Shown: positions 33,777-40,197 of the stretch, piece by piece
How positions within the stretch are numbered: the first letter of the stretch is position 1
How the letters are laid out: every line of letters starts with the position of its first letter
Notes under the pieces: generated by a model
What the model saw: the letters and a program-made list of their open reading frames with translations, nothing else
Database searches by the model: none
What the model was told of the DNA's origin: nothing
Assembly (NCBI GenBank): GCA_947632345.1
Contig: CANROW010000004.1
Span: 1 to 58,775, forward strand
From: an uncultured Bacilli bacterium
GTDB taxonomy: Bacteria; Bacillota_I; Bacilli_A; RF39; UBA660
DNA: 58,775 bases
Direction: 5' to 3'
Program-made: the position numbers and the translations under genes

Positions 33777-33865
33777 AACTACCTCCTCTACCATTATATA
33801 ATAAAGAACGGCAAATGAAAATAAAAAGAGTTGAATAGTCTAAACTAATTTTGGCATTATTACAT

Positions 33866-33898
33866 AAAAAAGATATATAGTTTTCTTTCTATATATCT
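33866..33898 (-). terminator. Rho-independent terminator downstream of the giant-protein/pseudo-ProA cassette
   Basis: Minus AGATATATAGAAAGAAAACTATATATCTTTTTTT. Confidence 0.75.
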
Positions 33899-33945
33899 CA
33901 TTTATCTTTGTCGATATAATCATTTTTTTCTATTTAAATTTATGG

Positions 33946-34974
33946 TTATTCCTCTTCATTTAAACTGATATTTTCACTATTACCATCTAATTTAAAACTG
34001 AATGGATATATTATAATCTTTTCATTAATAAGATCTTCTTGTTTGATATCAATTATTCTTTCAATAGTTGGACTGGTATTGACTGTTACTATTTTTGATT
34101 TTACTTCTCTTACAAATTTGGATGCATTTTCTGGTGAAGAAGTAAATATAGCCGAACTATAACCACTACCATTATAATTGATTTGCGCTATGGCTTCATC
34201 AATATCACTTACCATTATAGCTTTATAATCATCTAATTTGGTATCATTTATATCATCATTAATATATAGTTGAAGGTTTAATCCCGAATTTATTATTTTA
34301 TCTATAAATTCTAGATGGAAAGTATCTTCAATATATAAATCAAAATTTTCAGATCCACTAATAAGGGTTTTATTTTTTGATTTATTTAAAATGCGCTTTT
34401 GTAAATTATGATCACCAATACAAACAACCAAATCGATATTAGCAAAATTTGATAATAATTCATCAAAATTTTCAGATATATATATTTGTACTAAATATTT
34501 AGATATATTAAATTGTTCTAAAACGCTTTGGATTATTTGAATTAATAATTGATTAGTTCCAAACATAAAACCTTGATTTGAAAAAATCGTTGTATTTCCT
34601 GCCATTAAATTTCTAATTGCCATTTCAATCATTATATATGGATTACCATCAGTAATTACTACTACATTTCCATAATCCATTACTTGCGTTCCATATATTA
34701 TCTTTTTTTCTTCATCTCTTTGGGAAAGAGTTACACCACCATATAATAATTTTTCCTTTTCTAAATTAGAAAATATATTATTAATAATACTAAAATCTAA
34801 TACGAAGCCATTATTATTTTTTTTATCTATTTCATTGGCAAACCTAATTGTTTCTCTATTACTTTCCAAAGCTTTTTTTATTTGATTTATTATAGGCTTT
34901 ATACTTTTACTCAACATATCTTTATTTACTTGTAAAGATTTTGTTATGATAGCACTAATATCATTATCTGGCAT
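33946..34974 (-). CDS. ProA-like aldehyde-dehydrogenase-fold protein lacking the catalytic Cys segment
   Basis: From ATG 34974 (SD AGAGGTG): ...YGNVVVITDGNPYIMIEMAIRNLMAGNTTIF..., NIDLVVCIGDHNLQKRILNKSKNKTLISGSENFDLYIED, DIDEAIAQINYNGSGYSSAIFTSSPENASKFVREVKSKIVTVNTSP: co-linear with ProA, but no Cys at the QRPSTCNTVE position. Confidence 0.7.
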   Translation of the reverse strand: MPDNDISAIITKSLQVNKDMLSKSIKPIINQIKKALESNRETIRFANEIDKKNNNGFVLDFSIINNIFSNLEKEKLLYGGVTLSQRDEEKKIIYGTQVMDYGNVVVITDGNPYIMIEMAIRNLMAGNTTIFSNQGFMFGTNQLLIQIIQSVLEQFNISKYLVQIYISENFDELLSNFANIDLVVCIGDHNLQKRILNKSKNKTLISGSENFDLYIEDTFHLEFIDKIINSGLNLQLYINDDINDTKLDDYKAIMVSDIDEAIAQINYNGSGYSSAIFTSSPENASKFVREVKSKIVTVNTSPTIERIIDIKQEDLINEKIIIYPFSFKLDGNSENISLNEEE

Positions 34975-37900
34975 GGCCAACACCTCTTTCCTTATCCATT
35001 TCATCTGTTAATCCTCTTACTTTGGCATATATTTTTTGTTGCTTTTTATTAAAAGGAGATATATCAATGTTTTTATCACCAGCTATTTGATCTAACGCTA
35101 AACGCATTTGCATTATGACTTGATTCTCAATATCTAATTGTTGTTGTCCATTATCAACTTTTGTGTTAAATAATAAATCGCCAATTTTTAGTTTATTATT
35201 ATTAATATCATATATGATAGCAAAGTTAGGATGCATTATTATTCTAGTTGTTTTAGGATTTAAGTAATAATTTTCGGCAATTTCAGTTACAAGATGCTCT
35301 GAGTCTATGTGATCTTCGCCAGAAATTTCTAAATGACTTGAATTACCTTTGGTTACTAATTCCAATCTTTCTAAGGCCAACAAATTTTTTCCGGTGAAAT
35401 TATCATCAGTATATTGAATATACGTATCGTTGTGGACTGGTAGTGTTTCACCTTCATACTTTTTTCTATCATTTCTTTCTTCTAAAATATATTGCGTAGT
35501 AGAATCACTAGTATATAATCCTCTAGATAATTTTACGGGAGCTCCAAAAGGTAATGGTCTTGAAACGGTACCCTTATCAACTACAGAATTTTGTTTTAAT
35601 GATTCTGCAATATCGTTATATCCTAAACCAACAGTTATTTTTCCTAATCTTAAACCATCATATTGTTCTTGAGTTATTTTACCGCTTTCAAGAAGTTCTC
35701 TATAGACTTTTTCATCCGCTTCAATTAAATCATGTGCTGCTTGTTTATATATTTCAAAAACTTCATCAGTAAATCCTTTTCTACCTAATTCCGGATGTTC
35801 TTTATCGGCTCTTGAAAATGCTTTATCAGGTATTTCAATATTATCAAAGCACAATACATCTTTATTCCTCCATACCCAACTCTGAGCAACGATATTTCCT
35901 TGTTCATCTTTTATAACAAAAACACGACCGTTTTTATCAACCATACTATGCTCCATACAAACTTCAGCACAATTGTTTAATTCTTGACAACAATCAGTTA
36001 GAGTTCCAATCGCCATAGCCAGTGGATCATCCAATCTTAAGATTTCATAAGTATATATACCACTTGTTTTTTCGGCACTCTTTTCAATCCTTGGAATACT
36101 ACTAAATGTTCTTTGTTTGCCATAATTATAAATTTGTTGTAACGTATTAAAATCTGTTTGACTATATCCTGCAATTGCTGATATTTCAGCAACTCTTTCA
36201 TTACCGACATTAACAGATGCAAATTTATTGGTTTGGACAAAACTCACAGCTAAATCCAAAGTAAGTCCTCTATTACTATTCATAGTTCTTATATCAGAAA
36301 ATTGTCTTTGTATACTCGAAACATAACTGACATATTCTGGATTTTTTAAAATCATATCCATATTCTTCAATAAAAATTCGCGGAAATCAGGATCATATTT
36401 TAATTCAAATCCACCAAATAATTGATGGGCTTTTTCTGGGGTAAGAATAGGAATGTCTCTAAATTTGTCTAACATACCTCTAATAACCTGTGCTGATTTA
36501 GGACAACTTTGGGGATTAATAGTTAAAGTATAAGATCCATTTCCATTTTGTCTATATATTTGCGTTAAGATTTCTTTTGAAAAATCTACATCAACATTTT
36601 CTTGTTTTAATGCTTCTAACAGATTTAGCAAAGATTGAGTATCTAACAAATTCATAAATGATGAAGCCTTTTTAATGTATTCAATCATTTCTTGATAGGC
36701 TTTTTCAAACTCAGAACTAGATAAAGAATCTCTTGTGGCACGAATTTCACCATATTTACTATCTAAATAATCTTTTGAGTTAGCAACAAAAAATGTATAT
36801 TTTTGACTATACACATCAATTTCATCATCTAGTTGTTTCAATATATATGCTTGGCTTGAATCAATTTTTTTAGGTAGCTCAGTTAATAAATCTAATAATT
36901 TTTTAATCCCTCTTTGATCTTGATCAAAAGCACCAAATGAATACGCCAGTTTTAACATGGCATCTCTTGCTTCTGGATTTTTAGAAAAACTTTGAATTCG
37001 CATTAAATTATTCCAATTGGTTCCCGATGCCAAAAATTTATCTGCTTCGTCAATGCTAAAGTTTTGCATTACAACAAAGTCGGGAATAAATTTGCCACCA
37101 GTTTTATCATACCAACTTTTCATCAAATCAACTTGATGAGCTTTCATCATTTCTATAACGGTTTCCGCTCTATCAATTCCAAGTTTTATTGCATTTTTTT
37201 CACCGAACACTTCTATAAAGTTAATTAGGTCTAGTCTTAAATCAGTATTTCTAAGTAATGAAGTGATTAAAGCTTTATCTTTCAAATATGGTAACCATTC
37301 TTTATGAGCTTGTAATATTGCAAATGTCAAAGGAGATTTGTATTTATAAAAGTAGCTTTTTAATTCTTCTGGGGCATCATCATTTAAAAATAGTTCAGGA
37401 TGACTCTCTCTTAAAAATCTAGGAGCATCATCTGGGCGATAATCAATACAACCTAATTTACTTTCCCTAATTATGATTTTTTCAATCCTTTTTGATATTT
37501 CTTCAAATGTTAAACCATCTAAATTTTTATTACCTAAATCCATATATTTTCCATTTTTTATAGTAATATCTCGATTCAAATGTTGTACAATTCCATTCAA
37601 ATATCTACCATATACAGAACATAATTGTAAAAATTTTTCATTGCCAAACACTTCTAGTAGTTCTAAATCACTATAATATTTATGACTTCCGATAGTATCT
37701 AGTATTATTCGCCCATCAGAATGATTACCATCTTTATTACCAAAAGCAATAAATAAGTTCTTATCTTTAAGAATTGGTATTAATTCGGGATATTTTTGTA
37801 TATCATCAAAATTTAAGTTTCTACTGTAAAATGCCTCAGTTAATCTTTGTCGCTCTTCTCGAGGAATACTTGTTAATTCATAAAAATTTACGAATATTTC

Positions 37901-39823
37901 GGGATATTCTCTTACCATATCTGGAACACTAGATAAATAAGAATAATTCATTTTTCCATTTATTATTTTATTATAAATAGAGCTTTTTAAAGATTTTTCT
38001 ATAGCTTGTTCATCTTCAATTTCATTATGAAGACTGGATATAGTGATATCAGAAAGTATATTTCCATATTTAGAAATTAATTTTAATAATTTTAAATTAC
38101 CAAACCTTGAAACATACTCATCTATAAAATTGACAGAAGTTGGCATTACGTATCCTCGCGCATCCATTAATCCTGGTATATTTAAATTTATATTTACATT
38201 TAAAATATTAGATAAATTTTTATCAATTAAATAAGGGATATATCTCTTTTGTAAAAATAAAAAATCTGGATTAATTCTATTTTTATAGAAAGCATTTTTT
38301 AGGTCATTTGGAGCATCAAAATCTATAAATATTTCTGGATGAGCATTCCTAAATTCGCCCCGAAGCCAATCATAATTGGGATAATTTGGGAAATCCCCAA
38401 AAAATTTATCTTTTTTCATAATATCTAAACATTTAGCTAATTGATCTAAAAATTCTTCATAAGATGAATCACCATTTTTAAAGTCTATTCCTATCTTAAC
38501 TAATGACTTTGGAGTGTGCTTGTGAAAAAAGAGACTAAATGCTGTAAACATTTCTAATTCTGAAGACCACGAATAACCTTTATGAGTAAAAAATCCGGTT
38601 TCTTGTTCAAATCTTTTGATATAATCTATATCAAGTGTCTCTAAAACTCTTCTTTCATCTTGATCAAGTACAAAAACAGAATCATTATATTCTAATAAAT
38701 CCTTTGGATACCTTAATCTATCTACAAATTTAAAATTCATAGATGATAACCAATCTGGCACATTATAAATTGTTTGACCATCCCTTACAACTTTAAATTG
38801 GTCTGGCAGACCACTATGTATAAAATATTTTTTAATGGCATCACTAAAAGCACGATCCAAATCTTTACCCTTTTTTAGGAAGGGAGGATATGAATAAAAG
38901 TCTTTTTCCTGTGCTATATGCGCAAAGACATCAGGATGTTTCTTAAGTAACTCTTGAAATTTTCCCATTCCATAATTATCTCTAATAAATTGCGATATAT
39001 ATGTCCATTCCATAAAGTAATCTACTGGAATTTTTTCAAAGACATCAGGATAATCAATTAAATCCTGAATTTGTAACTGTTTGATAAAAAATCTTTCTTT
39101 TACTTCCTCTGGAATATCAACACCTACCAAAAAGATGTTGGGATTTTCTTTTATAAACATTTCTGGATAGTCATCTACTTTTATCCATCCAGTAGAATTG
39201 ATGATTTGTTTTCTGGCAAAATCAAAGCAAGTATTTTTCAATTCTGAAATTTCAACCGTTTTTATTCTTTCTAAAAATTCTTCGACAGATGGTGCATTTT
39301 TACCTTTTTCACCAGTCCAATGATTGTCATAACATATGGCGATCAATTTATTGACAGCATCATATTCTTCTGGCGAATATTTATATAATTCCACAATCTT
39401 ATCAATGCCAAATGTTTTTAATAACAATCCTTCATCGTCATTTTTTTCATAAATCATATGTTTTTTAAGCTTCTTATGCTTTATTTCATCTAATTGTTGA
39501 TTAGATAAAGATGCCAAGTCTTTAATAGTTAAAACTCCACTATAATATTTATCTTTAAATGCTTCACTGAATATATCACTTAAAAAGATGGATGAATTGG
39601 CTTTTATTGTCTCTTCATCAAAATCCCTCCAATTTAATCTTCTTCTAAGTTTTTCTAAATTTCTAACATTACATCCGCGAAAATTTCCGTCTCCAAAATA
39701 TGCTATTAAATCAAAATCAATATTAGCTCTAGTTTTCGAAAAATCGGCAATGTGAGTTTCATCTGAAAATATTCTAAAGCCTTTCCACGCTTCAAAGGGA
39801 ATATCACTTAAATCATAATTCAA
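34964..39823 (-). CDS. Giant helical-repeat protein with CC...C C-terminal domain; natural N-terminus frameshifted
   Basis: 1619 aa open frame, annotated start is TTG without an SD. Degenerate repeats (e.g. HPEIFIDFDAPNDLKNAFYKNRINPDF, YPEIFVNF..IPREERQRLTEAFYSRNLNFDDI, HPELFLNDDAPEELKSYFYKYKSPLTF). C-term DDPLAMAIGTLTDCCQELNNCAEVCMEHSM..FVIKDEQGNIVAQSWVWR. Confidence 0.8.
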   Translation of the reverse strand: MNYDLSDIPFEAWKGFRIFSDETHIADFSKTRANIDFDLIAYFGDGNFRGCNVRNLEKLRRRLNWRDFDEETIKANSSIFLSDIFSEAFKDKYYSGVLTIKDLASLSNQQLDEIKHKKLKKHMIYEKNDDEGLLLKTFGIDKIVELYKYSPEEYDAVNKLIAICYDNHWTGEKGKNAPSVEEFLERIKTVEISELKNTCFDFARKQIINSTGWIKVDDYPEMFIKENPNIFLVGVDIPEEVKERFFIKQLQIQDLIDYPDVFEKIPVDYFMEWTYISQFIRDNYGMGKFQELLKKHPDVFAHIAQEKDFYSYPPFLKKGKDLDRAFSDAIKKYFIHSGLPDQFKVVRDGQTIYNVPDWLSSMNFKFVDRLRYPKDLLEYNDSVFVLDQDERRVLETLDIDYIKRFEQETGFFTHKGYSWSSELEMFTAFSLFFHKHTPKSLVKIGIDFKNGDSSYEEFLDQLAKCLDIMKKDKFFGDFPNYPNYDWLRGEFRNAHPEIFIDFDAPNDLKNAFYKNRINPDFLFLQKRYIPYLIDKNLSNILNVNINLNIPGLMDARGYVMPTSVNFIDEYVSRFGNLKLLKLISKYGNILSDITISSLHNEIEDEQAIEKSLKSSIYNKIINGKMNYSYLSSVPDMVREYPEIFVNFYELTSIPREERQRLTEAFYSRNLNFDDIQKYPELIPILKDKNLFIAFGNKDGNHSDGRIILDTIGSHKYYSDLELLEVFGNEKFLQLCSVYGRYLNGIVQHLNRDITIKNGKYMDLGNKNLDGLTFEEISKRIEKIIIRESKLGCIDYRPDDAPRFLRESHPELFLNDDAPEELKSYFYKYKSPLTFAILQAHKEWLPYLKDKALITSLLRNTDLRLDLINFIEVFGEKNAIKLGIDRAETVIEMMKAHQVDLMKSWYDKTGGKFIPDFVVMQNFSIDEADKFLASGTNWNNLMRIQSFSKNPEARDAMLKLAYSFGAFDQDQRGIKKLLDLLTELPKKIDSSQAYILKQLDDEIDVYSQKYTFFVANSKDYLDSKYGEIRATRDSLSSSEFEKAYQEMIEYIKKASSFMNLLDTQSLLNLLEALKQENVDVDFSKEILTQIYRQNGNGSYTLTINPQSCPKSAQVIRGMLDKFRDIPILTPEKAHQLFGGFELKYDPDFREFLLKNMDMILKNPEYVSYVSSIQRQFSDIRTMNSNRGLTLDLAVSFVQTNKFASVNVGNERVAEISAIAGYSQTDFNTLQQIYNYGKQRTFSSIPRIEKSAEKTSGIYTYEILRLDDPLAMAIGTLTDCCQELNNCAEVCMEHSMVDKNGRVFVIKDEQGNIVAQSWVWRNKDVLCFDNIEIPDKAFSRADKEHPELGRKGFTDEVFEIYKQAAHDLIEADEKVYRELLESGKITQEQYDGLRLGKITVGLGYNDIAESLKQNSVVDKGTVSRPLPFGAPVKLSRGLYTSDSTTQYILEERNDRKKYEGETLPVHNDTYIQYTDDNFTGKNLLALERLELVTKGNSSHLEISGEDHIDSEHLVTEIAENYYLNPKTTRIIMHPNFAIIYDINNNKLKIGDLLFNTKVDNGQQQLDIENQVIMQMRLALDQIAGDKNIDISPFNKKQQKIYAKVRGLTDEMDKERGVGHAR

Positions 39824-39876
39824 TAAATGGTTTTGAATGGATAAATATTGTTCAGTAAATTTCTCAAATACCTCAT

Positions 39877-39984
39877 TTACATTGTAATTTTCATCATTTT
39901 TATGAAGCTCATCATATTCCGTATATTGCTTGCTAATTGATTTTTAATTTGCTCAAATTGTTCTAAAGACATTTTTTCAACCAT
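39877..39984 (-). CDS. Probable original N-terminus of the giant protein, in a different frame
   Basis: ATG 39984 MVEKMSLEQFEQIKNQ...; adding one A to the A5 tract at 39941-39945 continues as ...FEQIKKSISKQYTEYDELHKNDENYNVNEVFEKFTEQYLSIQNHLLNYDLSDIPFEAW. Confidence 0.6.
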   Translation of the reverse strand: MVEKMSLEQFEQIKNQLASNIRNMMSFIKMMKITM

Positions 39985-40159
39985 ATAGAAGACCATCCCT
40001 TTTTTCTCAAATCTACTGCATATAATAACATATTTTTCATAAATTTCAATTTTATTATAGCTTTTTTGGATAGTTTTCCAAATAAAAGTAAAAACATTAC
40101 AAGACAAAGATAATTATGATTATTAAGATATTATAAAATACAAAAGAAATTTAAAGCAT

Positions 40160-40185
40160 CATAAAAGAATGACTTGCGTCATCCT
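40160..40185 (-). terminator. Terminator downstream of smc
   Basis: Minus GATGACGCAAGTCATTCTTTT. Confidence 0.6.
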
Positions 40186-40197
40186 CTATGATTGAAT

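Follow-up and report, generated by a model that had tools for sequence, protein, structure and literature searches.

What does a protein do that resembles gamma-glutamyl phosphate reductase (ProA) along much of its length and lacks the catalytic cysteine of that enzyme? The question is raised by one gene in a stretch of 58,775 nucleotides (hereafter the window) from an uncultured bacterium of the RF39 Bacilli, for which a preliminary description proposed a ProA-fold pseudoenzyme with a non-enzymatic role, either in the sensing of a cofactor or metabolite or in binding.

33946..34974, minus strand: ProA-derived pseudoenzyme gene, 342 aa (coordinates include the stop codon; ATG at 34974)

The derivation of this gene from proA is confirmed. 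Its product is best matched by the NCBIfam family PRK00197 (E 2.1e-20, 72.9 bits), followed by TIGR00407 (E 5.8e-18, 64.9 bits), with scores far below the curated cut-offs for membership of 289 and 317 bits, respectively; Pfam Aldedh is matched at 32.1 bits, above its cut-off of 23. The segments aligned by eye to Escherichia coli ProA in the preliminary description fall inside these HMMER alignments. ProA entries of the PDB are recovered by the single sequence at E 1e-9, and a profile of 16 relatives recovers E. coli ProA at E 2.4e-14. For an AlphaFold2 model built from the alignment of these relatives (mean pLDDT 73), the best Foldseek match is E. coli GPR (PDB 8zoo, E 2.5e-17), ranks 1–17 being occupied by ProA or P5CS without exception. 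Both Pfam Aldedh and Foldseek thus place the predicted fold and order of segments in the ALDH/ProA superfamily, as had been proposed. The protein is also matched by a phage family of PHROGs with no known function (phrog_13417, E 4e-11), and in PADLOC-DB by a weak SIR2 match only (E 0.014).

The resemblance to ProA (PRK00197, TIGR00407; PDB 8zoo, 1o20) includes fold, segment order, oligomerisation strands and a Rossmann-like domain. The parts that survive are the helices at the N-terminus, the oligomerisation hairpin (residues 81–98), the strands of the Rossmann-like domain and the C-terminal strand (residues 318–324), the domains being named after the P5CS structure (PMC8963878). The differences from ProA lie in the active site. 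Relative to three canonical ProA sequences of other Bacilli (L005, L006, L056) the catalytic domain has lost about 70 residues, comprising the AKxQRPxVCNxxET region and the helices that follow it, and the block with the catalytic-Cys motif QRPxxCN is gone from every aligned member of the ProA-like family. The preliminary description was right that the cysteine block is absent but took it to be exchanged for a shorter segment; QRPxxCN..ET is lacking because a large part of the catalytic domain is missing, which is more than a replacement. Its further claim that the C-terminal segment is replaced agrees with the alignment, in which the glutamyl-phosphate stretch TRFTDGGEFGxGAExGISTQKLHARGP of ProA gives way to SPTIERIIDIKQxDLxxEKxIIYP. 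The ProA motif EARPNVT reads DGNPYxxx in the family, and its Asn, taken to be catalytic as in the ALDH superfamily, is a Tyr that is invariant among close relatives. In the dinucleotide site the ProA residues (PRGS, LKGGKE, the ARPN motif and the Glu of EYLDL) are not conserved, and none of the NADP and substrate motifs ARPNVT, LKGGKE, PRGS and TRFTDGGEFG is found in the protein. Of 110 positions invariant across the three canonical sequences, 19 persist in at least eight of nine ProA-like members. The only cysteine left, C185 (in CIG), was considered as an alternative nucleophile and rejected, because it is replaced by Thr in L026. A role in the proline pathway is impossible by known chemistry.

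A comparable case is ALDH16 (human ALDH16A1), a pseudoenzyme of the ALDH superfamily that lacks the catalytic Cys and has been proposed to be a binding protein (PMC8160307). The two share superfamily and loss of the cysteine; ALDH16, however, is a long two-domain protein from another ALDH branch, whereas the protein described here derives from ProA, is shortened and is fixed in a bacterial module of two genes. No ProA-derived pseudoenzyme was found in the literature searched, of which coverage was partial.

The ProA-like protein is conserved among 16 close relatives and several more distant ones, has invariant motifs of its own and, with pairwise dN/dS values of 0.21–0.29, is under purifying selection. 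To judge from these sequences it is a maintained protein and not debris, and the conjunction of a predicted fold under purifying selection with lost catalytic residues would qualify it as a pseudoenzyme. Two short forms adjoin a large partner gene of the type described below.

L059, 1664–2251, minus strand: short ProA-like form, 195 aa, adjoining the big partner
L060, 6204–6689, plus strand: short ProA-like form, 161 aa, adjoining the big partner

Both stop at nearly the same point, near residue 185, and thus short of the latter half of the Rossmann domain; either half of the protein is dispensable or these copies are decaying. A further copy (L053) is truncated at a contig end. In L018 (3–935, plus strand), at a contig edge and near a serine recombinase, an N-terminus that by eye is RsmH-like is fused to the ProA-like gene; as a likely chimera it was left out of the comparison.

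RF39 Bacilli have been described as auxotrophic, with highly reduced genomes (PMC6784871, PMC7301438). A canonical proA elsewhere in the genome, which the preliminary description had suggested looking for, was not found: in this genome (78% complete) the sole other match to the ProA profile is an ORF of 748 aa, a length suggestive of AdhE, and a profile search that detected all positive controls found no canonical proA above cut-off in any of 99 genomes of the same family. Since the hosts are without ProA, the ProA-like protein cannot serve to make proline by the known route.

The best clue to that role is an overlapping gene that the preliminary description did not mention. The features of the unit are the following.

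34964..39823, minus strand: main frame of the upstream partner gene, listed at 1,619 aa, with repeats at the N-terminus, a middle region, a Cys-Cys domain at the C-terminus and an 11-bp overlap with the start of the ProA-like gene
39824..39984, minus strand: true N-terminal part of the partner gene, starting MVEKMSLEQFEQIKNQLAS, split off by a frameshift near 39.92 kb
34975..34993, minus strand: Shine-Dalgarno-like AAGGAAAGAGGTG, inside the last codons of the partner gene and just before the ProA-like ATG
34967..36586, minus strand: C-terminal 540 aa of the partner, consisting of the Cys-Cys core plus a tail module (about 150 aa)

Relatives read the start of the partner, MIEKMSLEQF...LLSYDLSDIPFE, in a single frame where the window requires two, and the frameshift is either natural or an assembly error. 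In each of the 27 loci whose upstream DNA is readable, a very large gene lies directly upstream of the ProA-like gene, and the pairing persists for ProA-like proteins of 25–41% identity (L057, L058, L061, L121). The two genes overlap by exactly 11 bp in 15 of 16 close relatives and by 17 bp in the remaining one, with a GAAAGRGG-type motif at the equivalent place within the final codons of the big gene. Seen from the other side, 18 of the 21 full-length copies of the Cys-Cys C-terminal domain in 390 genomes have a ProA-like gene downstream, and the remaining three each stand in tandem with a copy that does. The linkage supports the view that the ProA-like gene is an obligate companion of a modular giant protein. 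Pairwise distances of the two genes are correlated (r 0.69), a figure not used here as evidence because shared ancestry alone yields such a value.

The partner is an orphan at the level of sequence. It has no match in Pfam, in the PDB by sequence, in PADLOC or in PHROGs; its N-terminal repeats, recognised by pattern, have the form HPELFLxxxAPxELKxxFY, and the invariant residues of the Cys-Cys core are G194, C199, C200, E251, T318 and G320 (numbered as in our alignment A3). The AlphaFold model of the C-terminal 540 residues is uneven (mean pLDDT 68) with a well-predicted core, in which strands and helices follow the GNAT order. Nearly all of its top 50 Foldseek neighbours in the PDB are GNAT or FemX proteins, with E 0.013 at best, and among viral models (BFVD) the one match below 0.001 is an uncharacterised phage protein (E 3e-8), the other nearest neighbours being GNATs and PcfJ-like proteins. 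On the strength of this model the Cys-Cys domain may tentatively be called GNAT/PcfJ-like. It differs from GNAT acetyltransferases and PcfJ-like phage proteins in its invariant CC motif, in having no match to a GNAT sequence family in Pfam or the PDB, and in structural E values of at least 0.01 in the PDB.

The partner is also a mosaic, as a paralog in the same genome illustrates.

L033 (own-genome contig C31), 2264–7255, plus strand: partner paralog, 1,663 aa, with the N-terminal half in common and a different C-terminal half

The C-terminal half of this paralog carries a nucleotidyltransferase-like motif, GSTGRGTN...DFDFMMRLD, and no ProA-like gene is next to it. Over the first 1.6 kb it is mostly 82–96% identical in nucleotides to the window partner, which mostly exceeds the 76–84% between the window and its ortholog in L012, and identity then falls to background. 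The partners of L012 and L013 are mostly 80–88% identical before the core, 64–72% over the core and 86–90% after it. The tree of the ProA-like proteins and that of the partner C-terminal domains share one of 18 splits, in spite of the adjacency of the genes; identity to the window is 81% for the ProA-like protein and 62% for the C-terminal domain in L013, and 59% and 79%, respectively, in L026. The identity shifts and the discordant trees therefore indicate that modules recombine between cassettes and with the nucleotidyltransferase-type paralog, the ProA-like protein being the constant element. The tail module of the Cys-Cys type also ends nucleotidyltransferase-type proteins from other genomes, in L118 (378–5774, plus strand) and L119 (103–4128, minus strand). 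A 1,114-aa protein on own-genome contig C5 (L034, 4205–7549) is related to the C31 paralog; neither of the two has a significant Pfam match, and the C31 protein has none in PADLOC.

Within the family, 19 of 390 genomes carry the cassette. A sample of the class yielded no instance beyond the family, and none was found in viral contigs searched with both profiles or in plasmids.

33795–40197 of the window: smc-ruvA interval, which holds the ProA-like cassette

In congeners, where this interval is readable whole, it contains unrelated genes, mostly for a leucine-rich repeat protein and a transglutaminase-like protein. The interval is hypervariable in the genus (window; L080, L081, L082, L084, L085, L086). 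One congener (G008) has the cassette at another site.

Taken with the selection data, these features indicate that the ProA-like protein is, almost certainly, a former enzyme that now functions as a component of a system not yet described. The reading we prefer, to which we would give about an even chance, is that in a module of two proteins the catalytically dead ProA derivative is the second, non-enzymatic subunit and serves as an adaptor or scaffold to the giant repeat protein. The subunit would be translated from inside the end of the partner gene and would most likely bind a constant part of the giant protein (the middle region or the tail), perhaps through the retained ALDH-type oligomerisation strands, that is, the hairpin and the C-terminal strand. 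The N-terminal repeats of the giant protein may act in recognition or placement and the exchangeable C-terminal core as effector, Cys-Cys and GNAT/PcfJ-like here, or nucleotidyltransferase-like in paralogs devoid of the ProA-like subunit. The pseudoenzyme with a probable binding function of the preliminary description fits well with the fold, the loss of Cys, Asn and substrate site, the selection and the range of relatives.

Patchiness, the variable site and module shuffling form a pattern which suggests that the cassette is probably part of a conflict-type system (defence or competition). Like polymorphic toxins and other modular conflict systems it combines a constant N-terminal module, exchangeable C-terminal domains, a small companion gene and a patchy distribution; it differs from them in that exchange of the C-terminal domain is not followed by the companion and in that none of the big proteins matches a PADLOC-DB model of a known anti-phage defence system. 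No feature of secretion or delivery was found for the cassette. That giant repeat proteins with recombining effector cores make up an undescribed class of conflict systems, in one branch of which dead ProA is a fixed, essential subunit, can be put forward only as a tentative proposal.

GNAT toxins with antitoxins are known (TacT, AtaT), and the ProA-like protein might likewise be an antitoxin or immunity protein that keeps a toxic acetyltransferase-like C-terminal domain inactive until a trigger arrives. Translational coupling of two genes, patchiness and a mosaic partner would all suit such a pair. The identities of ProA-like protein and Cys-Cys core are nevertheless uncoupled in L013, L025 and L026, on which ground a cognate immunity protein was rejected; the gene lies downstream of the presumed toxin, and the tandem Cys-Cys copies have no ProA-like gene of their own. 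An antitoxin is accordingly unlikely, and a common subunit, be it adaptor, scaffold or folding partner, is the likelier reading because the ProA-like protein does not follow the exchangeable core.

A ligand sensor, in which a remodelled Rossmann pocket would bind a nucleotide or metabolite and gate the big protein, is likewise improbable. The predicted model retains a Rossmann-like beta-alpha pattern, and invariant or nearly invariant residues (DGNPY, CIGD, SGYENFDLYIED) surround the old pocket, but the NADP-contacting motifs of ProA are lost and the two natural forms ending near residue 185 are without the second half of the pocket. For these reasons the cofactor or metabolite sensing of the preliminary description is not upheld.

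It is quite improbable that the protein mimics cellular ProA or another ALDH as a decoy, offered as bait to an invader protein that targets such enzymes: a well-kept fold with a dead active site, joined to a repeat and effector protein, is what a decoy might look like, yet the hosts have no ProA to protect and the sequence has diverged far from ProA, with few of its invariants kept. A decaying proA pseudogene or annotation accident, which the lost active site and the few truncated copies (L053, L059, L060) could suggest, is refuted by the dN/dS of 0.2–0.3, the new invariant motifs, the conserved 11-bp overlap and a wide but linked distribution, and hardly deserves credence.

Aldehyde dehydrogenases are known to have dead relatives in animals; here one derived from ProA is fixed in a bacterial two-gene module of sequence-orphan, recombining giant proteins from uncultured gut bacteria, which offers a test case for the reuse of a metabolic enzyme fold as what may be a protein-binding part.

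Cys-Cys cores occur in other settings as well. Hypothetical proteins of the cyanophage MaMV (OP394178.1, 60867–61388; NC_029002.1, 57519–58040) match the core with 25% identity (E 4e-8 and 1e-7, respectively). On own-genome contig C3 two adjacent genes (L035, 1612–4638 and 4643–6907, plus strand) encode proteins that combine BspA-type leucine-rich repeats with the Cys-Cys core of the partner at the C-terminus, and the short-core type represented there occurs in many more genomes of the family.
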